NCBI GenBank assembly: GCA_903837075.1
Contig: CAILTI010000030.1
Span: forward strand, 1 to 33,455
Length of the DNA: 33,455 bases
Source: an uncultured bacterium
GTDB lineage: Bacteria > Patescibacteriota > Minisyncoccia > Phycocordibacterales > PALSA-1337
Reading direction: 5' to 3'
In this document: piece by piece, positions 2,197 through 25,017 of the stretch
Numbering within the stretch: the stretch's first letter is position 1
Layout: the number at the start of each line of letters is the position of its first letter
The notes under the pieces: generated by a model
The model's database searches: none
Told to the model about the DNA's origin: nothing
What the model saw: only the letters and a program-made list of their open reading frames with translations
Translations under genes and position numbers: made by a program

Positions 2197-3264
2197 TTAT
2201 TTGAACAAACCTAGAAAGAAATTCCAGACTCGTCCTACGATAGATGTATTTCCTACTGCACCTGTTTGAGAAGAAACACTATCAGTAACAGCATCAGGAG
2301 TCGCTGTGTTCGTACCAGTTTCTAGAACTGGACCAACTGGAGCAACCACTGCACCACCTGCAACTACAGCAGTAGTAGCACGTGACTTATATGCATCGAT
2401 GATAGAAGAGTCGACTGGTGTCAAAACAAGTGGAATGTTACAAGCTAACTTGTTGATCAATTTCTGAGTAGTGATGTAAACAGTTCCTGTTGTTTGAGTA
2501 GCATTCCATGGACCCATAACTTCGGTCATATACTTGCTCTGGAAGGCTCGGACAGCAACTTCTGTTTGCTGGTCGAATATGCCATTCACTGCTACGTTGA
2601 TTCCCTGAGAATTTTTCAAGAATGACTGGAGTTTTGTAACCTGACTAGCATCATTCATACCACCGATCTTCATGTATGTGGTTATGAGAGGGCAAGATGA
2701 GGTTCCATAAGTAGTCAAAATGAGATTAGATCCTACATAACTGCCACTTGAACCACCAGAAGATGACCCACCACCTGAAGGAGGAACGACTATCGGAGAG
2801 GGTGCGGCTACTGCTGCGGCACTAGCGTCGGTACCACCAGTTGCTGGGGGGATACGTGCGGCTGCTGCTGCGGCACTAGCGTCGGCACCACCTGTTGCTG
2901 GGGGTCGTGTGATCACTCGATCAGAAGCTGAGCTAGTACTACCACCACCTGTTGCTGGTGGAGCGATGACCGTGGAGTCAACACCATCACCACCTGTAAT
3001 AGGAGCGACTGCGGATGCATCAATACGATCACCACGAGTTGCTGGAGGAGCGATGACCGTTGAGTCAACACCATCACCACCTGTAATAGGAGCTGCTACA
3101 AAGGCTGCGTTAGCAGCATCACCACCTGTACCGGCGACGGCAGCGTTAGCGTCAGCACCTCCTGTTGCGGGTGCTGCACTAGCAGATACGATCACTGGAA
3201 TAGCCATAACCATGACAAATGCTGCTATGATAAGGCTTGATTTCGTTATATTTGTGTTATTCAT
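2197..3264 (-). CDS. Exported repeat-stalk protein with peptidoglycan-binding-like domain
   Basis: The N-terminus has a signal peptide or anchor (residues about 8-32, ending in a VSASAAPATGG segment). Residues about 30-170 are a low-complexity stalk of PATGG/PITGG repeats with Ala, Asp, Val and Ser spacers. A Gly/Ser linker (SGGGSSSGGSSGS) leads to a globular part at about 180-290 containing QVTKLQSFLKN, VNGIFDQQTEVAVRAFQ and TQKLINKLAC, the layout of PG_binding_1-like domains that recur in Parcubacteria surface proteins. The end (VGRVWNFFLGLFK) is a short amphipathic or membrane segment. It probably sits on the cell surface attached to the wall. The stalk is encoded by direct DNA repeats (see the repeat entries). 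The divergent upstream spacer holds no clear promoter. The peptidoglycan-binding role is inferred from fold-like sequence, not from catalytic residues. Confidence 0.8.
   Translation of the reverse strand: MNNTNITKSSLIIAAFVMVMAIPVIVSASAAPATGGADANAAVAGTGGDAANAAFVAAPITGGDGVDSTVIAPPATRGDRIDASAVAPITGGDGVDSTVIAPPATGGGSTSSASDRVITRPPATGGADASAAAAAARIPPATGGTDASAAAVAAPSPIVVPPSGGGSSSGGSSGSYVGSNLILTTYGTSSCPLITTYMKIGGMNDASQVTKLQSFLKNSQGINVAVNGIFDQQTEVAVRAFQSKYMTEVMGPWNATQTTGTVYITTQKLINKLACNIPLVLTPVDSSIIDAYKSRATTAVVAGGAVVAPVGPVLETGTNTATPDAVTDSVSSQTGAVGNTSIVGRVWNFFLGLFK
2811..2904. repeat. Two 40-bp direct repeats (54-bp period) in the stalk coding region
   Basis: Copies at 2811-2850 and 2865-2904 differ at two positions. 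On the minus strand they encode the PPATGG(A/T)DASAA unit. The 54-bp period is 18 codons, so copies can be gained or lost in frame. Confidence 0.85.
2951..3093. repeat. Two 56-bp direct repeats (87-bp period) in the stalk coding region
   Basis: Copies at 2951-3006 and 3038-3093 differ at only two positions and encode the APITGGDGVDSTVIAPPAT unit. The 87-bp period keeps the frame (29 codons). A diverged relative lies at 4598-4653 in the neighbouring gene. Confidence 0.88.
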
Positions 3265-3624: not shown

Positions 3625-4755
3625 TTACTGGAGCTTCGCGCGCCAGTAATTCTTTCCGGCTGCCATCGCCCTCAGAAAGGTGTCTCCACCATTCACCGAG
3701 GCTTCGTCTAGCCAGACCCCGTTCGGCGTTGATGCCGACTGCAATACCCAGGAATCCTGAGCACCGCCAGTCAAACCCAACGCGACAGTGGACGCATCCA
3801 CTTGCTGGATGCTCATGATCCCCAGAGCCGACTGCACCTTGGTGTGCAAGGTGATCGATACACTAGCCGGGTTGTTTGTCCCGTCGTAGTACACCCATTT
3901 CAGGGTGACAGTGTAGTCTGTGAAAGAGTTCAGGTAATTTGCCACCGCAGCCAGGTCATAACTCGGGCTAGTCAAAAAGAATTTTGACGCCGCACCCGCG
4001 CTGATGAACTCATCCAGCGGTGTGTCCTTCCAAAGGCCGGCTGCGTAAACATTGGCCGCCGACCGGTGATCCGATGATTTCCACAGAATTCCGCGCGAGG
4101 CAGAGGTGTAGACGTAGGACGGATTGTTGAACGAGTTTGTCTTGTTCAACAGAACATCCGACGAAGATCCGACGAACGTGAAGTTGCCGGGCAACATTTT
4201 GTATCCTGGTGTCTTGGAGACACCATGGACAGTTGCCCACACAGACAACCCGTAGCCGGAAGCCGGCTGAGCTATATATTCAGCCTTGAGCACGTGGTCC
4301 GAGATTGCTCCCGGAACACTGTTCGACTGATAGATCCCCTCGACAGCTTCGGCCGCCCTGGCGGCGTAGTTACTATTCGTCGGGTACCAATTTAGGTACA
4401 CCGTACTCGTGAGGATTACCGGTCCCTCCGTGTTGGTTACCGACAGTGTGATGCCGCGAGGCGTGATTTCAAATTTCTTTGAAACCTCACTGCCACGGCC
4501 TAGACCACGATTCAGCTTTTTCAAAGCCTCATCTAACAGGATGGGTGTTGCATTCTCCTGTCCACTCCCATCCTTAGCAACCGCACCGGTGACATTATCA
4601 CCATCAGTTGCTGTTGGAGGGATGACCGGTGAGCTATTACCACCATCATCTGGCGACACAGCATAACCGACATTCGCACCGAGCCACACGCCCGCGATAG
4701 CGAGCACCGTCATAGTTGCTTTTCTCATTTTTTTCTTTCTATTTGATTTTCCCAT
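3625..4755 (-). CDS. Exported protein of unknown function with shared PAT-repeat N-terminus
   Basis: The frame could begin at TTG 4770, but ATG 4755 or ATG 4728 are more likely. A basic n-region (KSNRKKKMRKAT) precedes a hydrophobic segment (MTVLAIAGVWLGANVGYA), a good signal peptide. Residues about 40-70 hold one degenerate repeat (SSPVIPPTATDGDNVTG) similar to the stalk of the neighbouring protein. The rest is a beta-rich, Ser/Asn/Tyr-rich extracellular region with no recognised catalytic motif. The C-terminus (SWVLQSASTP, then a Gly-Gly turn and NYWRAKLQ) resembles short C-terminal beta domains of large secreted proteins seen for example in Verrucomicrobia; this is a weak resemblance. The gene is visibly richer in GC than its left neighbour, which may indicate transfer. 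It has its own terminator. Confidence 0.75.
   Translation of the reverse strand: MGKSNRKKKMRKATMTVLAIAGVWLGANVGYAVSPDDGGNSSPVIPPTATDGDNVTGAVAKDGSGQENATPILLDEALKKLNRGLGRGSEVSKKFEITPRGITLSVTNTEGPVILTSTVYLNWYPTNSNYAARAAEAVEGIYQSNSVPGAISDHVLKAEYIAQPASGYGLSVWATVHGVSKTPGYKMLPGNFTFVGSSSDVLLNKTNSFNNPSYVYTSASRGILWKSSDHRSAANVYAAGLWKDTPLDEFISAGAASKFFLTSPSYDLAAVANYLNSFTDYTVTLKWVYYDGTNNPASVSITLHTKVQSALGIMSIQQVDASTVALGLTGGAQDSWVLQSASTPNGVWLDEASVNGGDTFLRAMAAGKNYWRAKLQ
4598..4653. repeat. Diverged copy of the stalk repeat from the neighbouring gene
   Basis: This 56-bp segment aligns without gaps to 3028-3083 at about 43 of 56 positions, counted by eye. It encodes the NSSPVIPPTATDGD part of the exported protein, corresponding to the STVIAPPATRGD unit of the other stalk. 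Confidence 0.65.
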
Positions 4756-4900
4756 CCCAATTCGACGCAAATAGTCGCATTACACGGCTATAACACGTGA
4801 ACTTGTTGAGGATGAGGACAATAGTCCCATACTCCTTCTACCGCAAAGTAGACATAATGTCAATAGGCGCGAGTAATGTGCACACACATACCCGGTTATA

Positions 4901-4929
4901 TTGACGAACAGCTATATGTATGCCATGAT
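4901..4929 (+). promoter_or_regulatory. Candidate promoter for the 5038 gene
   Basis: TTGACG (4901-4906), a 17-bp spacer, then CATGAT (4924-4929) preceded by TGC, an extended -10. The leader of about 100 nt holds a small hairpin (GAGAGT 5001-5006 / ACTCTC 5016-5021) just ahead of the ribosome-binding site. Confidence 0.38.
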
Positions 4930-5024
4930 GATAATTCTAACCAGATTCTCTGGATAGTCTCGGTCACAGAGTATTGTGATAGACTGTTCTTTAACAAAAG
5001 GAGAGTATTATAAACACTCTCAAA

Positions 5025-10397: not shown

Positions 10398-10892
10398 ATG
10401 AGTAAAAATGACCTGTTCGTGACCGAGTTTGAATGCCGGGAACGTGGATGTGAATGCATGGTACCTCTGGTGATATGTCCGACCTTTGTCTTGGTGCCAG
10501 TTTCCTCCGCAAGCAATGAGCCGGCATATGCCTGCCCCATGTGCGGACGTCTGCACTGGGAAGATGGCCTTGCTGTACTGAACCGACGGTATGAGAAGGC
10601 GTTCCTTCGTGATGGCTGTATCGAATATCATCTTCTCGACTCAGGAGAGAAGAGTGCCCTCATACTAGAACTGATAAATTCAGTTGACGTAGATAATGAA
10701 GCTGACGAGGCGATCCGTTGCATAGAGGTTATGCGACTCGTCAATAAGGGTCACACGCCTGAATGTGACGCGCGAATATCGTCGCGTTGTAACTGCGGCA
10801 AGGACCTGGCAGTCAACTGGCTCATCAAGAGAGAGGCGACCGACAACGCTGTTTTGGTGATCGAGCAGCCGGCGACCGAGGCAGTGATATAG
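10398..10892 (+). CDS. Cys-rich orphan protein with half zinc-ribbon motif
   Basis: 164 aa, soluble, not recognised. Eleven Cys are visible: CRERGCEC (13-20), C27, CPMCG (46-50, a zinc-ribbon knuckle followed by RLHW), C74, C108 and a C-terminal HTPEC...RCNCG cluster (119-134). At least one zinc site is likely by inference. It stands alone between its own promoter (with an adjacent 26-bp palindrome) and a strong terminator. Start ATG 10398 follows an A-rich tract and lacks a Shine-Dalgarno sequence. The opposite-strand ORF over this region is a shadow. Function unknown; a nucleic-acid or protein-binding role is possible but unsupported. Confidence 0.8.
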   Translation: MSKNDLFVTEFECRERGCECMVPLVICPTFVLVPVSSASNEPAYACPMCGRLHWEDGLAVLNRRYEKAFLRDGCIEYHLLDSGEKSALILELINSVDVDNEADEAIRCIEVMRLVNKGHTPECDARISSRCNCGKDLAVNWLIKREATDNAVLVIEQPATEAVI

Positions 10893-10940
10893 AACAAGCG
10901 CTAGGCTGCGAAATTAGCGCTGCAGCACAGATAGCACAAC

Positions 10941-10972
10941 ACCGAACGCCCCCAAAGACGTTCGGTTTTTTT
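10941..10972 (+). terminator. Rho-independent terminator
   Basis: ACCGAACG (10941-10948) pairs with CGTTCGGT (10959-10966), followed by T residues to 10972. A second small inverted repeat (AGCGCTA/TAGCGCT, 10897-10921) lies just upstream. It ends the 10398 gene before convergent pheT. Confidence 0.9.
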
Positions 10973-10981
10973 ATTCCATGA

Positions 10982-13054
10982 TTACCTCACCTCCCAACCT
11001 GGACCTTTCAGTGCCGCATAGATCGCGGTCATTATCTTGTTCACTTCATCATCTGTCAGCGTTCTCTCCATCGACTGGAAAACCATACGGAAAGCATACG
11101 AAACTTTTCCATCTTTCTCGAAGGTATCGAATAGCGAATGTCTAGCCAGGAGATCCGCCGCATTCATGCCTCCGCTAACATCTACACCTTTCATACCATC
11201 CAAGATCACGTTCCAGACATGGTCAGCAGACGTGGATGCAGGAACGAATACCGCAACATCGCGCACGATGAATGGATATGGTGATAACTTCTGGTAAATA
11301 TTCGGAGATGTTGGCCCGAAACCTAGATCACCATAAGTGGCATCCTTGGGCAACTTGTATGATTTCAATATTTCATTTAGATCGATCTCCATGACCGATA
11401 CAGAACCTTTCTCAACTAGAGATTCAGGGGTCGAGAATACGGAATCATCGACGCCAAGCGCAGTACCGAGTATTCCGACGACATCGCCGAGTAGTTTCTT
11501 TCCATTAACTCCCTTCACCTTCTTCACTTGTGCCGCACCTAGGCAGAGTTTCAGGTATTCGCCAGTGTTGTCAAAGACGCGTCCGATCTCAAATACCTTC
11601 ACAGCTTCTAGTCCGATGAGGTCAGCGTTCAATACATTTTTTTGGACACAGGTGATCATGCCGTCCGTCAGATTGGCTCGGGCGAAAGCTTTGTCCCGCG
11701 CCAGCGGCTTGGCAGTTTCTACTTCACCATGAGCAACCAATGAATACAAACTAACTTCAGAATATCCCTGTGCTATCAATACATTCTTCATCTTCTCAGA
11801 TAGATAATAGCTCGGCAGAATGGCGACCCCTTCTACGGGCCTGGCCAGCGAGACTCCTTTCACATTTTCATAACCATATATGCGGCCAACCTCCTCGACG
11901 ATATCATCGGGAATAGTGAGATCGAGTCTGCTGAATGGGATAGTGAGTTGCCATACTGAACTGTTATCTTCTACTGATTTGTCGTGTATCGGATACCGAC
12001 CATTGACTATGATCGTTATGCCCATATTTTCGAGAATCCCCTTCGCCATCTCTAGTGGAACCTCGATTCCAAGCCTCTTACTGATATATCGCGGATCTAT
12101 CTCTATGACTGTCTGTACTGCTTTTTTCGGATATACGTCAACGATGGGACCAAACTTGGCGGTAGGGATCTCTCGGAGGATCAATGCTGACAACTCGGTC
12201 ATACCTGACATGGCGAGCTCTGGTGTGATCTCATTTTCATATCTTTTGGAAGATTCACTACGCAGATCATACTTCGTCGAAGTGCGTCTCACAGTAGTCG
12301 GCTCGAAGTTTGCCGACTCTAGGATGAGTCTCCTCGTATCTGCGGTGATCGCCGCGCGTTTGCCCCCCTTCACACCGGCTATAGCTAGCGGCCCTTCGTC
12401 GTCGGCGATGACGTGATCTGATATGGATAGCTCTATCTCCCTCGCACCCGCCTGAGGGAGTGTTTCCTGTCCGTTCTCCCCTTGCGGACGTGAAGCGGAT
12501 GATTCCAGTAATACTATCTTCTCACCTTTCCTAGCCTGACGAACAACTATACTACCCTTCACCTTATCAGCATCGAAAGCGTGCAATGGTTGACCGATGT
12601 CGAACATCACGTAGTTCGTCGCATCCACGATGGCGTTGATCGATCTCTGCCCTATAGCATTCAGAGCGTCCTGTATCTCTGGTGTAGCGTCGCCTATTTT
12701 CTCGATTTCCACATACCTACCAACATATCGTCTGCAGAAATTGTCTGCTTCGATAGTGATAGACGGTTTTCCCTCTGTTGATACAGTAACGTCGACTGGA
12801 GCTATCTCTGCGTACGCCATTTCTGTCATAGAAAATACTTCCCCCGCGATGCCTCTGTGGCATAGATCATGATGCGCACGATCTGGTAGAACCTTGAGAT
12901 CTAGTACCGTATCTATAACCTGGCCATTCTCGTCATTCACTTTTTCCACACCCTCAACCTCGAATGCGTGGAATGTAAAGAGTTCATCTAGTCTTTCTGG
13001 ACTCGGAATCGGTTTGGTGAAATATTTTTGTAGCCAATTGTGGGAAATTTTCAT
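10982..13054 (-). CDS. pheT: Phenylalanine-tRNA ligase beta subunit, reduced form
   Basis: PheT forms the alpha2-beta2 enzyme with PheS that charges tRNA-Phe. The start MKISHNWLQKYF is typical. In 690 aa it carries B3/4 (about 95-270), B5 (about 290-400, with DPRYISKRLGI), the catalytic-like domain (DIVEEVGRIYGYENV) and a C-terminal FDX-ACB anticodon-binding domain (YPFIVRDVAVFVP to the end). The EMAP/tRNA-binding domain that normally occupies about residues 40-150 is missing: the N-terminal helix runs straight into LDLKVLPDRAHHDLC. A loop insert within B3/4 (SSASRPQGENGQETLPQAG) is encoded by two short hairpins at 12437-12489. The start follows the pheS stop by 6 bp, so the two form an operon. 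No RBS is evident. Confidence 0.96.
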   Translation of the reverse strand: MKISHNWLQKYFTKPIPSPERLDELFTFHAFEVEGVEKVNDENGQVIDTVLDLKVLPDRAHHDLCHRGIAGEVFSMTEMAYAEIAPVDVTVSTEGKPSITIEADNFCRRYVGRYVEIEKIGDATPEIQDALNAIGQRSINAIVDATNYVMFDIGQPLHAFDADKVKGSIVVRQARKGEKIVLLESSASRPQGENGQETLPQAGAREIELSISDHVIADDEGPLAIAGVKGGKRAAITADTRRLILESANFEPTTVRRTSTKYDLRSESSKRYENEITPELAMSGMTELSALILREIPTAKFGPIVDVYPKKAVQTVIEIDPRYISKRLGIEVPLEMAKGILENMGITIIVNGRYPIHDKSVEDNSSVWQLTIPFSRLDLTIPDDIVEEVGRIYGYENVKGVSLARPVEGVAILPSYYLSEKMKNVLIAQGYSEVSLYSLVAHGEVETAKPLARDKAFARANLTDGMITCVQKNVLNADLIGLEAVKVFEIGRVFDNTGEYLKLCLGAAQVKKVKGVNGKKLLGDVVGILGTALGVDDSVFSTPESLVEKGSVSVMEIDLNEILKSYKLPKDATYGDLGFGPTSPNIYQKLSPYPFIVRDVAVFVPASTSADHVWNVILDGMKGVDVSGGMNAADLLARHSLFDTFEKDGKVSYAFRMVFQSMERTLTDDEVNKIMTAIYAALKGPGWEVR
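12437..12489. repeat. Pair of hairpins inside pheT
   Basis: CTCCCTC/GAGGGAG (12437-12460) and GTCCG/CGGAC (12469-12489) lie in the segment encoding an extra loop of the B3/4 domain. Confidence 0.5.
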
Positions 13055-16232: not shown

Positions 16233-16697
16233 TCACCTCATCACCGAAATACTAGCCGTCAATTCACCAGTCGAGCTCGCTGTTATACGACCATTCGTGT
16301 CGCGGATGATCTCGTAGCCAGTATTGTACGAATCGATGGAATCAAACTTGGCGTCGGAGATCGACGGGTCGAATGGTAGAGCCGATATATAGTCCGGTAC
16401 CAAACAGTATGCTATATCGCCAGCATCACTACGAGTCCCACTACCCTTCACGACAGTCCAGCTAGTCGGCAAAACCCTCGTCGTACCACTGCACACGAAC
16501 GCGCCCTTGTGCTCTGCCATATTCTGATGAATGGCATTCAAGATCGCGTTTACATTACTCGTGCGCTGAGAATCACGAGCTAGCTTGAATTGGCGGGACG
16601 GGTTTACCGCAACCAGGACAACGGTCGCCAGGATGGCGATGATACCGATGACCACGAGCACTTCGATCAATGTGAATCCTTTGTTTGTTTTTTTCAT
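16233..16697 (-). CDS. Type IV pilin-like protein (probable major pilin)
   Basis: 154 aa. The N-terminus MKKTNKG|FTLIEVLVVIGIIAI has a prepilin-peptidase cleavage site after Gly, Phe at +1 and Glu at +5, followed by the hydrophobic alpha-1 helix. The C-terminal domain holds two Cys (VCSGTT and YCLVP) that could form a disulfide and a D-region-like loop. The NPSRQFKLARDSQRTSNVNAILNAI helix is the typical pilin continuation. It is the last gene of the pilus cluster but has its own promoter and an 11-bp repeat array, which fits a highly expressed subunit. Its approximately 43-nt leader contains a CCACT/AGTGG hairpin. No prepilin peptidase is in the window. Confidence 0.93.
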   Translation of the reverse strand: MKKTNKGFTLIEVLVVIGIIAILATVVLVAVNPSRQFKLARDSQRTSNVNAILNAIHQNMAEHKGAFVCSGTTRVLPTSWTVVKGSGTRSDAGDIAYCLVPDYISALPFDPSISDAKFDSIDSYNTGYEIIRDTNGRITASSTGELTASISVMR

Positions 16698-16746
16698 ATA
16701 TTTTAATTAATAATAATTCCACTACCCCCAAAAGAGTGGTACGGTC

Positions 16747-16755
16747 AGCATATCA
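16747..16755 (-). promoter_or_regulatory. Candidate pilin extended -10 (TGA TATGCT)
   Basis: On the minus strand TGA then TATGCT lies exactly 7 bp downstream of the repeat array. The same spacing is found at pilB (TGA TACGAT). Transcription would start near 16740. Confidence 0.5.
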
Positions 16756-16762
16756 AAGTGGC

Positions 16763-16839
16763 GATAAAGATCTGATGAATTTTCGATGAAGATTTGATAA
16801 AGAAAAGATCAAATTTTGATAAAGAAATGATAAAGAATA
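16763..16839. repeat. Seven tandem 11-bp repeats upstream of the pilin gene
   Basis: Units on the plus strand are GATAAAGATCT, GATGAATTTTC, GATGAAGATTT, GATAAAGAAAA, GATCAAATTTT, GATAAAGAAAT and GATAAAGAATA. All begin with GAT. The first 62 bases match the array at 21025 at about 58 positions. An 11-bp period cannot be coding and roughly equals one turn of the helix, which suggests a multi-site protein-binding platform over the -35 region. Confidence 0.93.
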
Positions 16840-16869: not shown

Positions 16870-17211
16870 CTATCTATGGCCTGATCGAGAAATGTCAGAA
16901 ATCGATGAAGTGGCATCGACAGTTACGTGACCTGAGAAATCATTATTCACATACACATTACAACCAAATTCGGATAGAAATGTGGCACCAGACATGTAGA
17001 AGTCTCTAGCGATCATAAGTTGAACAGTATCTAAACAGGCTTCGAGGTTATAGGTGGTTTGCGTTCGACGCTCTCTCCGATAGGTCAGATCAGAATACGT
17101 CATAGCTGACGTCAGAGTCACCAACGCAAAGGCCATCACCCCAGTTACGAGGAGGATAGTAGCGATCATCGCTACAAAACCGCGCACCCTAATAGGCTTC
17201 TTCGATGTCAT
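16870..17211 (-). CDS. PilX-like pilus assembly / minor pilin-like protein
   Basis: The start is set at ATG 17211 (MTSKKPIRVRGFVAM); the upstream extension of this frame overlaps the coding part of the previous gene. 113 aa. A short basic leader precedes the helix GFVAMIATILLVTGVMAFALV, then SAMTYSDLTYRRERRTQTTYNLEACLD, a pattern like PilX N-terminal regions (TM helix, then a Ser/Arg-rich helix and an Ala/Glu-Ala turn). It has no Glu at +5, as in PilX-type proteins. Two Cys may pair in the small C-terminal domain. It overlaps the preceding mini-pilin gene by 23 bp. A role in pilus assembly is inferred from position and helix. Confidence 0.7.
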   Translation of the reverse strand: MTSKKPIRVRGFVAMIATILLVTGVMAFALVTLTSAMTYSDLTYRRERRTQTTYNLEACLDTVQLMIARDFYMSGATFLSEFGCNVYVNNDFSGHVTVDATSSISDISRSGHR

Positions 17212-17383
17212 GTGAAAGTTTGATGTTCTGGTAATCGATATCGACCGCGAATTGCATGAATCCGAACAATAGTAATGACAGTAGAACCATGTACAACATC
17301 GTTTCAATGAGCGTCAGGCCACGATCATACATTTCGCGTTCTACCCTTCGAGACTGTATTTGATAGTGGTGGTGCATATTCAT
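17189..17383 (-). CDS. Mini type IV prepilin (helix only)
   Basis: 64 aa. A 21-residue His/Arg-rich leader is followed by RG|LTLIETMLYMVLLSLLLFGFMQF, a textbook class III prepilin signal with Glu at +5. After the helix only about 18 residues remain (DYQNIKLSHDIEEAY), so the usual globular head is missing. The ATG overlaps the stop of the preceding fusion gene as ATGA (17380-17383), implying translational coupling. It could be a PilV/PilW-type minor pilin reduced to its membrane helix, or a gene truncated by the start of its neighbour. Confidence 0.75.
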   Translation of the reverse strand: MNMHHHYQIQSRRVEREMYDRGLTLIETMLYMVLLSLLLFGFMQFAVDIDYQNIKLSHDIEEAY

Positions 17384-18819
17384 AGGTGATGATCGCGAAC
17401 TATTCTGATCTCGTAGATAGCCGGTGAAGTTTTCGATAGGACATATATCACGTCGCGATAACAGGTCATGACCTGTGGTGAAGTTGGCAAAGAAAACTTT
17501 TGTATAGAACTGGCACTGAGGCTCCTATCGAATATCATGAACTCCTCGCCAGCCTTTCTCGAGATGAGGTATGTGTGCCCTCGATCGGCGACAATGCCAT
17601 AGACGCCACCTGGCATGTCCGTAGATACGTAACTAGATAGGTTCTCCTCGCTCGATGTTGAGAATACGAATGCCTCATGATCGGGAGTAACGTTATAGCC
17701 ACCCGACGTACGCCCGAAATTGAGACCATTTTCAAAAAGTGAAATAGCCTGCCCCTCCTGACGTTGCCAACCGGATGGGCTGAAATCTCTGATGACTAAG
17801 AGACCAGAAGGGTCGCGAACATCGACCAGTCTCAATTGACCTTGCCCTGCGGTCGCCATGTAGGCAGTACCGTTGTGAACATATATATCACTCACCCTAC
17901 TACCTATCTCCATACCGGATATTTTATTCGGCGTCGCTGGGTCAGTAATGTCGATGATGGAAAATTCATCACCAACCCACTTCTCAGTTCCCAGATACAC
18001 CTCGTGGTCATGATAGGCGATGCTACTACCCAGTGGTGGAGTGTCAGTAGCATGTAATAGAGGTACTTTGAATCTCCTTACCAATGACAGATGCTGTGAC
18101 TGGTCCATCTGGATCACGTGTAATTGTGCGGCGGTAGATATGGCCGCGGCGTATATATGCTTCCCAGCGAGAGCGAATGCAGCTATTCCAGGACCAGTGT
18201 TGATCGATGAAATCATTGAAAATATCCCCGTCGACCTGTCTAGATGTAGAACGTATAGGTCTGGATCACTCACTACATTCGGATTCGCACTTATATAGAA
18301 TGCATCACCTCTCACTTCTAGATCTGTGAGCGGTATTGATGGATCCAGGGGCAGATCTCGAGTAGTTACATTCTTGCTCAAACTATATGTCGACGTGCTC
18401 TCGGCCTGCTTCTGTATCCAATCATATGATCCGATAGTGCTACTATCAGTGAAATCCTCCGAACAGAGTGCCGACTGATCCAGTGACTCGATAGGCGTGC
18501 CCACGTCCGCCCTAACTATCATGAACGGTATAGTCGATGATCCTGTTTCGATCATATCGTTCCCATACGGTCTGTCATATATATCTCCTGATGAATTCGA
18601 GAGATCAGTCTCGTATCTATCGAGCAATTCGTTTCTCGCTTTCGCACGGTCAAATATGTCTCTCGAATATGATGACGACTGAGCTATGACGACGATGAAT
18701 ATGAGACTCAGCGAAAGAGCTAGGATGATATCTATGAGAATCATTCCCCTTTCATGTATTGGCACACCTTTTTGGGGAGAGAAGTGATTTTCAGTGTTGT
18801 AATGCTTTCGATATATCAT
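17380..18819 (-). CDS. Prepilin-like helix fused to LVIVD beta-propeller (putative pilus tip protein)
   Basis: 479 aa. The N-terminal leader ends IHERG|MILIDIILALSLSLIFIVVIAQ. This is a prepilin-like cleavage site with Asp rather than Glu at +5 and a single hydrophobic helix. From about residue 160 there are repeated beta-propeller blades, several with the LVIVD-type pattern: EFSIIDITDPATPNKISGM, LRLVDVRDPSGLLVIRDF and VYGIVADRGHTYLISRK. LVIVD propellers are extracellular and thought to bind ligands or surfaces. In a pilin operon this suggests a tip or minor pilin carrying an adhesin head, comparable in idea to PilY1. The start overlaps the end of pilC by 29 bp; a GTG at 18765 is an alternative start. 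Confidence 0.83.
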   Translation of the reverse strand: MIYRKHYNTENHFSPQKGVPIHERGMILIDIILALSLSLIFIVVIAQSSSYSRDIFDRAKARNELLDRYETDLSNSSGDIYDRPYGNDMIETGSSTIPFMIVRADVGTPIESLDQSALCSEDFTDSSTIGSYDWIQKQAESTSTYSLSKNVTTRDLPLDPSIPLTDLEVRGDAFYISANPNVVSDPDLYVLHLDRSTGIFSMISSINTGPGIAAFALAGKHIYAAAISTAAQLHVIQMDQSQHLSLVRRFKVPLLHATDTPPLGSSIAYHDHEVYLGTEKWVGDEFSIIDITDPATPNKISGMEIGSRVSDIYVHNGTAYMATAGQGQLRLVDVRDPSGLLVIRDFSPSGWQRQEGQAISLFENGLNFGRTSGGYNVTPDHEAFVFSTSSEENLSSYVSTDMPGGVYGIVADRGHTYLISRKAGEEFMIFDRSLSASSIQKFSLPTSPQVMTCYRDVIYVLSKTSPAIYEIRIVRDHHL

Positions 18820-19864
18820 ATATGGGCATGAGTATTGATAATGCTATAGATCCGACGACGACGCCGAGACATATCATCATGAGCGGCTCGATGAGTGAAG
18901 TCAGCTTCTTTAATGAATGCTCGATGTCGCGGTCGAGAATATTGGCGGCACGTATGATAGAGACACCGAGAGTTCCTGAGAGTTCCCCGGCAGTAACGAG
19001 CGCGACCACGTATGGTTCCATCTGACTTTTTTCCAGAGTATTCCCTAGCGAGAGACCTCTAGATAGACCCTCGGCTCGTAGAGCCAATGTTTTCTTTATC
19101 GGCAGAAATGTTATGAAGAAAACCGAATCACTGAAGGCTTTGAATACTGACGATCCACTATCTATGAGTGATCCCAGTGATCTGAGAAATATCACAATAT
19201 TGAAATTCCGAAACAATTTTCCTAACAATGGTACGCGGCATAGGACTGATTGTACGAAACATCTGAACGGTGCATTTCTCCTATATGTAATGAAAAGCGC
19301 GACGATGAGAACTGTGAGAATTATCAATATGTACAAACCTGCATGTACCAATACGTTCGATGAGTAGATCATCAGTCTCGTCAAGAGTGGTAACTTTACA
19401 TGCAATCCCTGTAACATCGGGACGATCTGTGGCAGTACGCCGCGTATCAACCCCAAGACAAAGACGATCGAGAATAGTCCTATGACACTAGGATAGATCA
19501 TCGCGCCAACACATTTCTTTGTCAGCTCCTCCTGTTTCTCTATACTCGTTCTCACGGTATTTATCGCCGACACCAATCCCCCCGCCGTTTCTCCGTGAGA
19601 AATTATTCCCGCTAGAGTTTTTGAAAGTTTCATATATTTTACGAGCCCGCCAGAGAGTAGCGACCCCGACTCTGTGTGCACTATCAATGCTTCGACATCT
19701 ACTCTATGCGACTTTGTGACTCCTACTTTGCACAATTTCAGTGCTGCATCGATCGCCAATCCTGACGTCAGATACAGTTCTAGTCGCTCGAAAAATATCG
19801 CCTTGTCTCGTGCATTCCAGTTCTTGTGGTGATGTAATTTGGGAAATTTCATACTTCTATACAT
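18791..19864 (-). CDS. pilC: Type IV pilus inner-membrane platform protein PilC/GspF family
   Basis: 357 aa, two T2SSF repeats. The first half has FFERLELYLTSGLAIDAALKL and a HGETAGGLVSAI motif, then a membrane helix (IYPSVIGLFSIVFVLGLI). The second half has FLRSLGSLIDSGSSVFKAF and TAGELSGTLGVSI, ending in the last TM helix (PLMMICLGVVVGSIALSIL). PilC couples the cytoplasmic ATPase to the growing pilus. The ATG at 19864 overlaps the pilB stop (8 bp); MKFPKLHHHK at 19852 is an alternative start. At 357 aa it is a little shorter than the usual ~400. Confidence 0.94.
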   Translation of the reverse strand: MYRSMKFPKLHHHKNWNARDKAIFFERLELYLTSGLAIDAALKLCKVGVTKSHRVDVEALIVHTESGSLLSGGLVKYMKLSKTLAGIISHGETAGGLVSAINTVRTSIEKQEELTKKCVGAMIYPSVIGLFSIVFVLGLIRGVLPQIVPMLQGLHVKLPLLTRLMIYSSNVLVHAGLYILIILTVLIVALFITYRRNAPFRCFVQSVLCRVPLLGKLFRNFNIVIFLRSLGSLIDSGSSVFKAFSDSVFFITFLPIKKTLALRAEGLSRGLSLGNTLEKSQMEPYVVALVTAGELSGTLGVSIIRAANILDRDIEHSLKKLTSLIEPLMMICLGVVVGSIALSILMPIYDISKALQH

Positions 19865-21002
19865 TCAATACCCTCAGAACTTCCTCCCTCGAAGTTATGC
19901 CCCACTCGACCTTTTCCATGCCATCCTCGATGATGGGACAGAATCCATCGACCAGTGCGTGATCGAACAACGCAGCAGCAGTCGATTTTGTCGATATGAG
20001 ACTGCGCATCTCACTATCTATCTCACATACTTCGGCGATGACAGAACGACCTTCATAACCAGTATCACGGCATTTCTCACAGCCGAGGGCGAAACATTCT
20101 CGACACATCGTCCTGACCAGCCTCTGTGCCACGATCAGACGCAGAGTCGAAGCCAGCAGGTAGTGATCAACACCCATATCGACCAACCTAGGTATCGCTT
20201 CTATAGCCGAGTTCGTATGTAAGGTCGACAAAACCAGATGACCAGTCAACGCTGTATGTACGGCGACTCTAGCTGTTTCACTATCACGTATCTCGCCTAC
20301 CATGATGACGTCCGGATCTTGACGCAGCGCAGATCGGAGCCCACTTCCAAATGTCACGCCCTGAGCATTACGGATGTGTACTTGGCGGACTCCAGGAATC
20401 TCATACTCGACAGGATCTTCCAATGTGATGATAGACAATGGTTCTCGAGCCTTGAGAGACAAACAAGTATGCAGTGTTGTAGTTTTGCCAGAACCAGTCG
20501 GACCAGTTACCAGTATGAGACCGTTGGTATTTTTCATAGCATCATGCATCAGTCGCACATGATCTGGAGTAAACCCGAGTTTGGCGAATGACAGATCCGT
20601 ACTAGTAGCCGCAGGTAGTAGTCGGATAACGGCATTCTCGCCATGATATGTTGGCATGAAGGATATGCGTATGTTGCACTCGAGACCGTCCAACACTGTC
20701 CGCCACCGACCATCCTGTGGTACGGCATGTATGTCTGTTCGTGCGCCGGAAAGGATCTTTAGTCTAGAGATCATCTCGTCATGCAGTCTCCCTGGTATCG
20801 TACCGACCTCACCGATCTGCCCATCGACGCGAAACCTGATGACAGTATCGTCCCTCCTAGGGTCACAATGTACATCCGACGCCCGTACACATGAGGCGAA
20901 ATTCAGAACTTGGTCGATCGCTTCGGCCGCAGTATGTGGATCGACCGGAAAATGTACCGAAAACTTTTCAGATGAATTGTCTATATCCGTTTTTGTATTC
21001 AT
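19857..21002 (-). CDS. pilB: Type IV pilus assembly ATPase, PilB/GspE family, N-terminally reduced
   Basis: 381 aa. It shows ASDVHCDPRRD, RFRVDG, PQDGRW, Walker A GPTGSGKTTT (167-176), the Asp box TLEDPVEYEIPG, Walker B DPDVIMVGEIRD and the His box TALTGHLVLSTLHTNSA. A C-terminal CRECFALGCEKC is a compact version of the PilB/GspE tetracysteine zinc site. The first about 150-200 residues of typical PilB (MshEN/N1 domain) are absent, so it starts directly with the N2-type domain. The zinc motif favours extension (PilB) over retraction (PilT). It is the first gene of a tightly overlapping operon. The ATG is 6 bp after an extended -10, so the mRNA is probably leaderless. Confidence 0.92.
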   Translation of the reverse strand: MNTKTDIDNSSEKFSVHFPVDPHTAAEAIDQVLNFASCVRASDVHCDPRRDDTVIRFRVDGQIGEVGTIPGRLHDEMISRLKILSGARTDIHAVPQDGRWRTVLDGLECNIRISFMPTYHGENAVIRLLPAATSTDLSFAKLGFTPDHVRLMHDAMKNTNGLILVTGPTGSGKTTTLHTCLSLKAREPLSIITLEDPVEYEIPGVRQVHIRNAQGVTFGSGLRSALRQDPDVIMVGEIRDSETARVAVHTALTGHLVLSTLHTNSAIEAIPRLVDMGVDHYLLASTLRLIVAQRLVRTMCRECFALGCEKCRDTGYEGRSVIAEVCEIDSEMRSLISTKSTAAALFDHALVDGFCPIIEDGMEKVEWGITSREEVLRVLNV

Positions 21003-21008
21003 ACGAAC

Positions 21009-21017
21009 ATCGTATCA
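21009..21017 (-). promoter_or_regulatory. pilB operon extended -10 (TGA TACGAT), leaderless
   Basis: On the minus strand TGA then TACGAT is followed by six bases and the ATG at 21002, so transcription should begin at or next to the start codon. The -35 position falls inside the 11-bp repeat array and has no consensus. Confidence 0.55.
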
Positions 21018-21024
21018 GACAGGA

Positions 21025-21123
21025 GATAAAGATCTGATGAATTTTCGATGAAGATCTGATAAAGAAAGGATCAAATCTAGATAAAGATCTGATAAAATCC
21101 TGATGAAGATCCGATGAAGATTT
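21025..21123. repeat. Nine tandem 11-bp repeats upstream of the pilB operon
   Basis: Units on the plus strand are GATAAAGATCT, GATGAATTTTC, GATGAAGATCT, GATAAAGAAAG, GATCAAATCTA, GATAAAGATCT, GATAAAATCCT, GATGAAGATCC and GATGAAGATTT. All start with GAT and none is out of phase. Units 1-6 correspond in order to units 1-6 of the array at 16763. The array ends 7 bp before the TGA-extended -10, the same as at the pilin gene. Confidence 0.94.
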
Positions 21124-24162: not shown

Positions 24163-25017
24163 CTAGCCTATCGCCGTTCTATTTATCGATAGAGCGAAGG
24201 CGCCAGTACCCAGATCTACCCCTATTCTCTGCGCCAGTGAACGCATATAGGTACCACTCGAACATCTGACGAGTAATCTGATGACTGGAGAATTTGAGAC
24301 GCCACCTTCCTTACAGTCCTTACAGTTTTTGCCACATAGGGAATCTGAGACGCCATCTTCCTTACAGTCCTTACAGTTTTTGCCACGTAGGGAATTTGAC
24401 GAAAAATTCGTCAAAACTTCCCGCCACCGTTTCCCTATCACCTCCTGTCGGAAATCCCCTTTTACCAGATCAATATTCCCGACCATTCTCGCCAGCAACC
24501 CCTCTGCCGTGATAGTCCCAGTATCTATCACTCGAATAGAGTATATTTCCACCTCTCTCGTCGGCATAACTTCTGGCAATGCACCACTCCTCGCCAGTTC
24601 GTGCAGCTGCCGTCCATTTACTGTTTTCGACGAATACGGCGGGTATTCCTGAGCAAATTTCCCCACATATTTCTGCAACCAGTCCTGCGCCGGGTAAGCC
24701 CACAGATCATTTACACCCTGCGCATCCTGAACGATTCCCAACGCATCATAGGTATCTGTCGAGATACCTATCAGGATTTCAACCTCATACTCTTTGTCCA
24801 TGCCGAGATATTTTTCCTTGTCCTTACATTCATCACCTATCAAGATCAAGATTTTCCCCTCCGCCATAGGATCCAGTCGTCCAGCATAGGTCATCGGCAC
24901 ATTTTCCCAAGTATATCCGGTGACACAAGCCTCCGATGTACGTATCTTTCCTGCACGAAATCTCTCCAACGCCTCGAGAGGCGTCTCGCCTACCAACTTT
25001 TCTATGATCTCGGACAT
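24163..25017 (-). CDS. truB: tRNA pseudouridine(55) synthase TruB, divergent with repeat insert
   Basis: TruB makes pseudouridine 55 in the T-loop of tRNAs. The catalytic Asp is in YAGRLDPMAEGKILILIG (residue about 49, family consensus GxLDPxAxGvL). YEVEILIGISTDTYDALG and AQEYPPYSSKTVNGRQLHELARSG follow, then the C-terminal RCSSGTYMRSLAQRIGVDLG block. The N-terminus lacks the usual LLIDKPxGxTS segment and instead starts MSEIIEKLVGETPLEALERFR. An insert at about residues 206-243 is made of two copies of a 17-residue unit with GKNCKDCKE. The start is 6 bp after an extended -10 (TGC TAACAT), so probably leaderless. It is divergent from hisS. Confidence 0.9.
   Translation of the reverse strand: MSEIIEKLVGETPLEALERFRAGKIRTSEACVTGYTWENVPMTYAGRLDPMAEGKILILIGDECKDKEKYLGMDKEYEVEILIGISTDTYDALGIVQDAQGVNDLWAYPAQDWLQKYVGKFAQEYPPYSSKTVNGRQLHELARSGALPEVMPTREVEIYSIRVIDTGTITAEGLLARMVGNIDLVKGDFRQEVIGKRWREVLTNFSSNSLRGKNCKDCKEDGVSDSLCGKNCKDCKEGGVSNSPVIRLLVRCSSGTYMRSLAQRIGVDLGTGAFALSINRTAIG
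24289..24415. repeat. 51-bp tandem repeat plus 9-bp palindrome inside truB
   Basis: Copies at 24290-24340 and 24341-24391 are nearly identical, with the first bases of a third copy. A perfect inverted repeat TTTGACGAA/TTCGTCAAA (24395-24415) follows directly. The 51-bp unit is 17 codons, so the frame is preserved. Confidence 0.88.

Follow-up and report, generated by a model that had tools for sequence, protein, structure and literature searches.

Repeat arrays at two pilus promoters

The window, that is, the whole 33,455-nt stretch of DNA that was analysed, carries a pilB operon and a type IV pilin-like gene on its minus strand, each preceded by an array of 11-bp repeats and an extended -10 element. 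The features are as follows.

21025..21123, minus strand: array 1, nine 11-bp units, proposed operator of the pilB operon without binding data (sequence; TRF; orthologous arrays)
21009..21017, minus strand: extended -10, TGA TACGAT, with the hexamer TACGAT at 21014-21009 (sequence)
19857..21002, minus strand: pilB, short PilB/ComGA-like traffic ATPase, 381 aa (Pfam T2SSE 3e-107; NCBIfam)
18791..19864, minus strand: pilC/comGB-like inner-membrane protein (Pfam T2SSF; NCBIfam GspF/PilC/ComGB)
17380..18819, minus strand: operon gene 3, 479 aa, without Pfam or NCBIfam match
16870..17307, minus strand: operon gene 4, 145 aa, N-terminus pilin-like by eye, without Pfam or NCBIfam match
16763..16839, minus strand: array 2, seven 11-bp units upstream of the pilin gene (sequence; TRF)
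16747..16755, minus strand: extended -10, TGA TATGCT, 10 bp from array 2 (sequence)
16233..16697, minus strand: type IV pilin-like protein (GFTLIEVLVVIGIIAILATVVLVAVNPSRQF), 154 aa (Pfam N_methyl 4e-09)

Read directly, the units of array 1 are GATAAAGATCT GATGAATTTTC GATGAAGATCT GATAAAGAAAG GATCAAATCTA GATAAAGATCT GATAAAATCCT GATGAAGATCC GATGAAGATTT, all in phase without a slip as originally predicted, and the array was picked up independently by TRF. The unit is GATNAANNNNN on the plus strand and NNNNNTTNATC on the sense (minus) strand, with GATNAA constant in all units and positions 7-11 variable. The original prediction was thus right that every unit starts with GAT, but GATAAAGATCT, which it gave as the consensus, holds only loosely, and the A or G that it placed at position 4 is found in eight of the nine units and is replaced by C in the other one. 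The first promoter-proximal unit lies 10 bp from the pilB -10, which is itself only 6 nt from the ATG at 21002, and the leaderless pilB transcript that had been proposed is plausible at this distance. The claim that a matching array occurs within the window only at the pilin promoter was also borne out; the pilin promoter array is present in G001, G002, G006, G011 and G017 as well. The pilin-gene 5′ leader (16698-16746) can form a small hairpin (CCACT...AGTGG), and 5′ leader hairpins were seen at further array promoters, for example those of pilin and comEC in G017.

A protein-coding repeat was ruled out as the origin of the arrays, which are intergenic and have a period that is not a multiple of three. 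The window separately contains two coding tandem repeats, a PATGG-type repeat at 2802-3093 inside the ORF 2197-3264 and a 51-bp duplication at 24290-24399 within the gene 24163-25017.

Against NCBIfam, the pilB product matched GspE/PilB (1e-118) and ComGA (2e-72), both under the curated cut-offs, and three further PilB/PilT-type ATPases are encoded elsewhere in the window's genome. Because the PilB is short and ComGA-like and the next gene is PilC/ComGB-like, the predicted products suggest a DNA-uptake pilus.

Genome-wide distribution and target genes

Whole-genome distribution was assessed by pattern searches together with extracted regions. Allowing three mismatches at most, a search for (GATNAANNNNN)x4 gave 36 overlapping, clustered matches in the 730-kb genome of the window (G000) and 0 matches for the reversed-pattern control. 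When 60 related genomes were searched with at most one mismatch, matches were found in 12, all of one genus, which is labelled in our counts, by inference, as Candidatus Taylorbacteria-like Paceibacteria.

The DNA-uptake targets in the window's genome are the pilB operon, the pilin gene, comEC and rpsF-ssb-rpsR. A short and weak array also precedes the gene after comEC, which occupies the place of the ComEC C-terminal part and whose G001 orthologue aligns with ComEC/Rec2 positions 415-633. Arrays further precede a PemK-like gene and a small coiled-coil gene that diverges from dnaB; the last two loci are a small-gene/RAYT locus and an unidentified one close to groES. Both pilus promoters therefore carry arrays as noted in the original prediction, but the genome holds at least seven further array loci and the element is not limited to the pilus. 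The proposed search of relatives for tandem 11-mers likewise found them upstream of pilB and pilin genes and also at other competence genes: the same target list recurs, with the addition of comM, dprA (alone or behind a PemK-like gene), a secreted LCAT-like protein, RmuC and a site directly 3′ of a response-regulator gene.

A relaxed three-unit search of the whole G017 genome, which is 99% complete, returned 11 loci, all of them promoters, and no others. They are pilB, pilin, comEC, the ComEC C-terminal part, comM, rpsF-ssb, the 3′ side of the regulator gene, the coiled-coil gene, the secreted LCAT-like protein and two tRNA-like RNAs. A random or genome-wide repeat, which had been named as a refuting outcome, was excluded by this promoter-only location (11/11) together with the absence of reversed-pattern matches. 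A pilus-only regulon was also ruled out, most targets being other competence genes. A competence regulon should have a common promoter element at the DNA-uptake pilus, ComEC, DprA, SSB and ComM, and this was met, without expression data. The array carriers outside competence are PemK-like proteins, LCAT-like proteins, RAYT transposase, RmuC and tRNA-like RNAs.

Two separate genes encode ComEC, one for the membrane part and one for the C-terminal part (L076:8165-9577 and 10705-11649; L089:9366-10832 and L330:3801-4637), each with its own array promoter in several genomes. PemK/MazF-like proteins were found repeatedly under array promoters, at times directly before dprA (L318:5145-5573, L328:5365-5751, L090:15291-15704, L084:6818-7135 and L335). 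Large secreted-looking proteins of 940-980 aa with an LCAT-like/esterase domain were also found under array promoters (L101:5930-8821, L320:2385-5306, L326:2028-4841 and L324), and possibly have a lytic or host-lipid function tied to competence.

Conservation, unit structure and spacing

We extracted the promoters upstream of pilB from 30 genomes and of comEC from 28, and the 3′ side of the regulator gene from 29. Without any motif, an 11/22-bp periodicity was detected against dinucleotide shuffles at p ≤ 0.05 in 29/30 pilB, 26/28 comEC and 27/29 regulator-3′ regions, and in 1/19 comEC promoters from other genera. A motif model scored arrays at all pilB (30/30) and comEC (28/28) promoters of the genus and directly 3′ of the OmpR/PhoB-type regulator gene in 29/29 genomes, so that absence from homologous pilB promoters, a second outcome that would have spoken against the original prediction, was not seen. 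The model was trained on the promoters that it scored and is partly circular, a weakness of which the periodicity test is free, and all of these counts come from related MAGs and are not independent events. Since outside the genus the same model scored 5/19 comEC promoters, in which the runs are shorter (2-5 units), a short box may have come first and been lengthened later in this genus.

The sense-strand unit is NNNNYTTNATC and ends 9-10 bp before the -10, at the expected position of the -35. Arrays have 4-9 units as scored (median 5), and information content is 1.4-1.6 bits at the TT and A of the TTNA core and about 0.5 bits or less elsewhere, spacer included. A direct-repeat operator is expected to have head-to-tail repeats, here with an 11-bp period, and a short conserved core with a variable spacer, here of 4-5 bp, and the arrays meet both. 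Outside the core, units two steps apart are more similar (0.468) than neighbours (0.386), a 22-bp alternation that fits regulator dimers.

Among the promoters with a clear TGNTANNNT, 44/48 have the array 9-10 bp from the -10, as expected of a box that replaces the -35; another 39 promoters without such an extended -10 match were left unscored for spacing. A lack of conserved spacing, the last of the refuting outcomes, was accordingly not observed. At pilB, the distance from -10 to ATG in 20 scored promoters is 6 nt in 16, 8 nt in one and 1 nt in three, and because these distances are short, leaderless initiation looks conserved, as far as predicted promoters can tell.

Several near-identical copies of the array are dispersed in one genome, as in G017, which would be compatible with a mobile or selfish repeat or with an assembly artefact. 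We regard this explanation as practically eliminated, since the arrays occupy orthologous promoters in 30 separate assemblies, in a single orientation to the gene and at a fixed spacing to the -10, and no flanking inverted repeats or duplicated flanks were seen.

A candidate regulator and its co-variation with the repeat core

In a PF00486 search for a cognate OmpR-family regulator, almost all genomes of the genus proved to encode an OmpR-type regulator, which falls into one of two classes, A and B. Class B, which has a SNTVEAHIRNLRKK helix, occurs almost throughout the genus and comprises Response_reg and Trans_reg_C domains; its nearest solved relatives by sequence are DrrD, M. tuberculosis PhoP and PmrA, and its predicted fold is clear. 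In several genomes the class B gene, together with the array and -10 on its 3′ side, is followed by a histidine kinase gene.

Class A was found in few genomes, including the window's assembly. That assembly (77% complete) has no class B gene, and its sole OmpR-type regulator is of class A (L136:3566-4270, on G000 C38); we infer that its class B gene sits in the unassembled part. Taken at face value, the assembly would favour the idea that the arrays are used by another DNA-binding protein, either class A or an unrelated repeat-binder, with class B a mere neighbour. Class A is, however, missing in G001, G006 and most array-bearing genomes, whereas in every genome read an array and a -10 lie within about 0-170 bp past the class B stop codon.

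The class B recognition helix is also the part of the protein that best tracks the repeat core. It is near-uniform (AHIRNL) save in a few genomes, among them G009 (AHMARL) and G013 (AHIAHL). In these two, 10/34 units have A at the N of TTNA, compared with 0/443 elsewhere; G replaces the first core T in 15/17 units of G009 and in 1/460 elsewhere, and in G029 (SNAVES) the same T is mostly A (6/10 units). The regulators of G009 and G013 are mutually nearest, and their shared core change may be one event. Over 28 genomes, a Mantel test of core distance against helix distance gave r = 0.56 (p < 2e-4), which remained at r = 0.55 (p < 2e-4) when the rest of the regulator was partialled out; the rest of the regulator itself gave r = 0.11 with core distance. 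When 218 windows of 14 residues were scanned, the top windows all overlapped the recognition helix, with the outliers in or out. Dependence of the site sequence on the recognition helix, a further property of direct-repeat operators, was hence met as a correlation among related MAGs. We consider this co-variation the strongest evidence that class B may read the arrays, but it is correlational, the genomes are related and there are no binding data. Use by another binder is in our judgement improbable, though not negligible.

The same results bear on a regulator-free explanation, in which phased A/T tracts would bend the DNA or bind the polymerase alpha subunit in the manner of an UP element. 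The units are AT-rich and in helix phase, and 226/497 contain a run of four A or T; more than half do not, the information sits in TTNA, and the G009 arrays (GTTATC, GTAATC) have no tracts. Neither curvature nor an UP element would change in step with the helix of a response regulator, and the restriction to competence genes would be left unexplained. We therefore give it very little credence.

Proposed mechanism

The arrays, their positions, spacing, conservation and target genes and the core-helix co-variation are direct computational observations, and our preferred reading, to which we assign a probability of roughly 0.8, is that the array serves as operator for a competence regulon, which the class B OmpR/PhoB-family regulator activates by binding there. 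No binding, footprint or expression data are available, and regulator binding, activation over repression and control by phosphorylation, or phosphorylation-enhanced binding, are all inferred.

Under this model, each 11-bp direct repeat would be occupied by one class B subunit, in a head-to-tail arrangement with probably a dimer for every 22 bp, and all subunits would lie on the same side of the helix. Those closest to the promoter, at the -35 position, would bring sigma-70 RNA polymerase to the extended -10 located 9-10 bp away or fix its placement there, and because they sit in place of a -35 the promoter should fire only with active regulator. With 3-10 units, occupancy would be cooperative and switch-like. 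The putative targets would be the pilB-pilC operon, pilin, both ComEC halves, SSB (rpsF-ssb-rpsR), ComM and DprA, together with the transcript that begins immediately 3′ of the regulator gene and with a small number of accessory genes. A regulator that activates or binds cooperatively, occupies one helix face and replaces the -35, as first envisaged, fits all of the findings.

The array overlaps the -35 position, and geometry alone cannot separate activation from repression; the arrays could instead be repressor sites, at which bound regulator would keep the promoter shut until released by a signal. The promoters lack a -35 consensus, however, and the 9-10 bp spacing is typical of -35-replacing activator boxes, while a repressor site has no need of a fixed spacing. 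Repression is accordingly the alternative that we take most seriously, though we think it unlikely, and activation by class B remains our preferred reading.

RNAs under array promoters

The predicted transcript 3′ of the class B gene has a hairpin near its predicted start with the 5′ loop GTCGA (L094, L102, L141, L142, L145 and others). It is perfect in 24/29 genomes and slightly imperfect in the remainder, and is often followed by a strong terminator-like hairpin. Its stem co-varies, with 91.9% of cells paired and 21 cells changed on both sides compared with 5.9 in shuffles. None was found in the window's own genome. The hairpin is a candidate for a new small RNA or leader, as judged from base pairing alone.

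In G001 and G017, array promoters are also found ahead of ∼75-nt tRNA-like sequences (L068 about 2328-2570, L075 about 4750-4950, L093:11127-11198 and L099:9281-9351), whose anticodon arms are irregular and which have the pattern GGGCCCG...GGGTTCGA.TCCC...CGGGTCCAC. ARAGORN called them tRNA-??? or Asp(atc), or missed them, and their score is under the Rfam tRNA threshold. An Rfam search of the window and ten related loci found no family at the hairpin RNA or at the tRNA-like transcripts. A broader proposal, which we put forward only tentatively and hold to be less probable than its negation, is that of a dedicated patescibacterial competence two-component system with long arrays that drives its own non-coding RNAs, namely the tRNA-like transcripts and the GTCGA hairpin-led RNA, which follows the regulator gene in every genome of the genus that was read, and so combines a transcriptional with an RNA layer.

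Implications and comparison with known systems

DNA-uptake genes are enriched in Patescibacteria, of which at least one group can be transformed naturally, but the papers found describe no competence regulator for the phylum. A named regulator with an operator code and a gene list would allow competence control in an uncultured lineage to be tested both in vitro and in heterologous hosts. The genus further offers a natural series of operator/recognition-helix pairs (TTNATC, GTNATC and others) for studying specificity evolution in OmpR-type regulators, and the array target list tells which genes these reduced genomes count as competence.

In the Saccharibacteria (Southlakia epibionticum), ComEC, DprA and type IV pili take part in natural transformation (PMC10633639), and these components of Patescibacteria are common to that Com system and ours. 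That paper gives no regulator or promoter element ('regulat' is absent from its text); PMC10633639 and PMC11665869 name ComEC, DprA, pili or general machinery and no regulator, and no CPR competence regulator was found in the literature, limited to open-licence PMC papers.

PHO boxes consist of 11-nt direct repeat units (PMC4415409), and the direct repeats bound by M. tuberculosis PhoP are of 7+4 bp, with extension of the protein to tandem trimers and tetramers (PMC4832192). The 11-nt direct repeats of the PHO boxes of PhoB (E. coli) and PhoP (B. subtilis, Streptomyces, M. tuberculosis) are thus shared with the arrays, as are ∼7 conserved and 4 less conserved nucleotides, head-to-tail OmpR/PhoB binding and cooperative extension. 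The arrays differ in their competence-gene targets, in their core TTNATC and in commonly having 5-10 units, compared with two in a classical box. A PHO regulon would place phosphate genes beside the arrays, and none was found in the six genomes in which arrays were annotated.

The CiaR boxes, TTTAAG-N5-TTTAAG at distance 10 from the -10 (PMC3091779), resemble the arrays in their direct repeat of a 6-bp core with N5 and in that distance. The CiaR regulon includes small RNAs, and the CiaR system affects competence (PMC3091779). CiaR belongs to another phylum, uses two repeats and differs in core and recognition helix (VVEVYVSKVRKKL vs TVEAHIRNLRKKL); its competence effect is pleiotropic, whereas the arrays sit on the DNA-uptake machinery genes themselves. 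A CiaR regulon proper was rejected, the TTTAAG-N5-TTTAAG with its invariant G not being met by the array core TTNA(T)(C).

Because the 6-7 bp core, the 11-bp repeats, the distance of ∼10 bp to the -10 and the lack of a -35 are as in PHO and CiaR boxes, the operator appears to be of a known type. The pilus regulator of an undescribed kind that the original prediction had in mind should be amended on both counts, as the target is a competence regulon and the operator type has been described. In sum, by this comparison the kind of operator would be a known one with OmpR/PhoB geometry, while the array seems unusually long and its lineage and role appear to be new.
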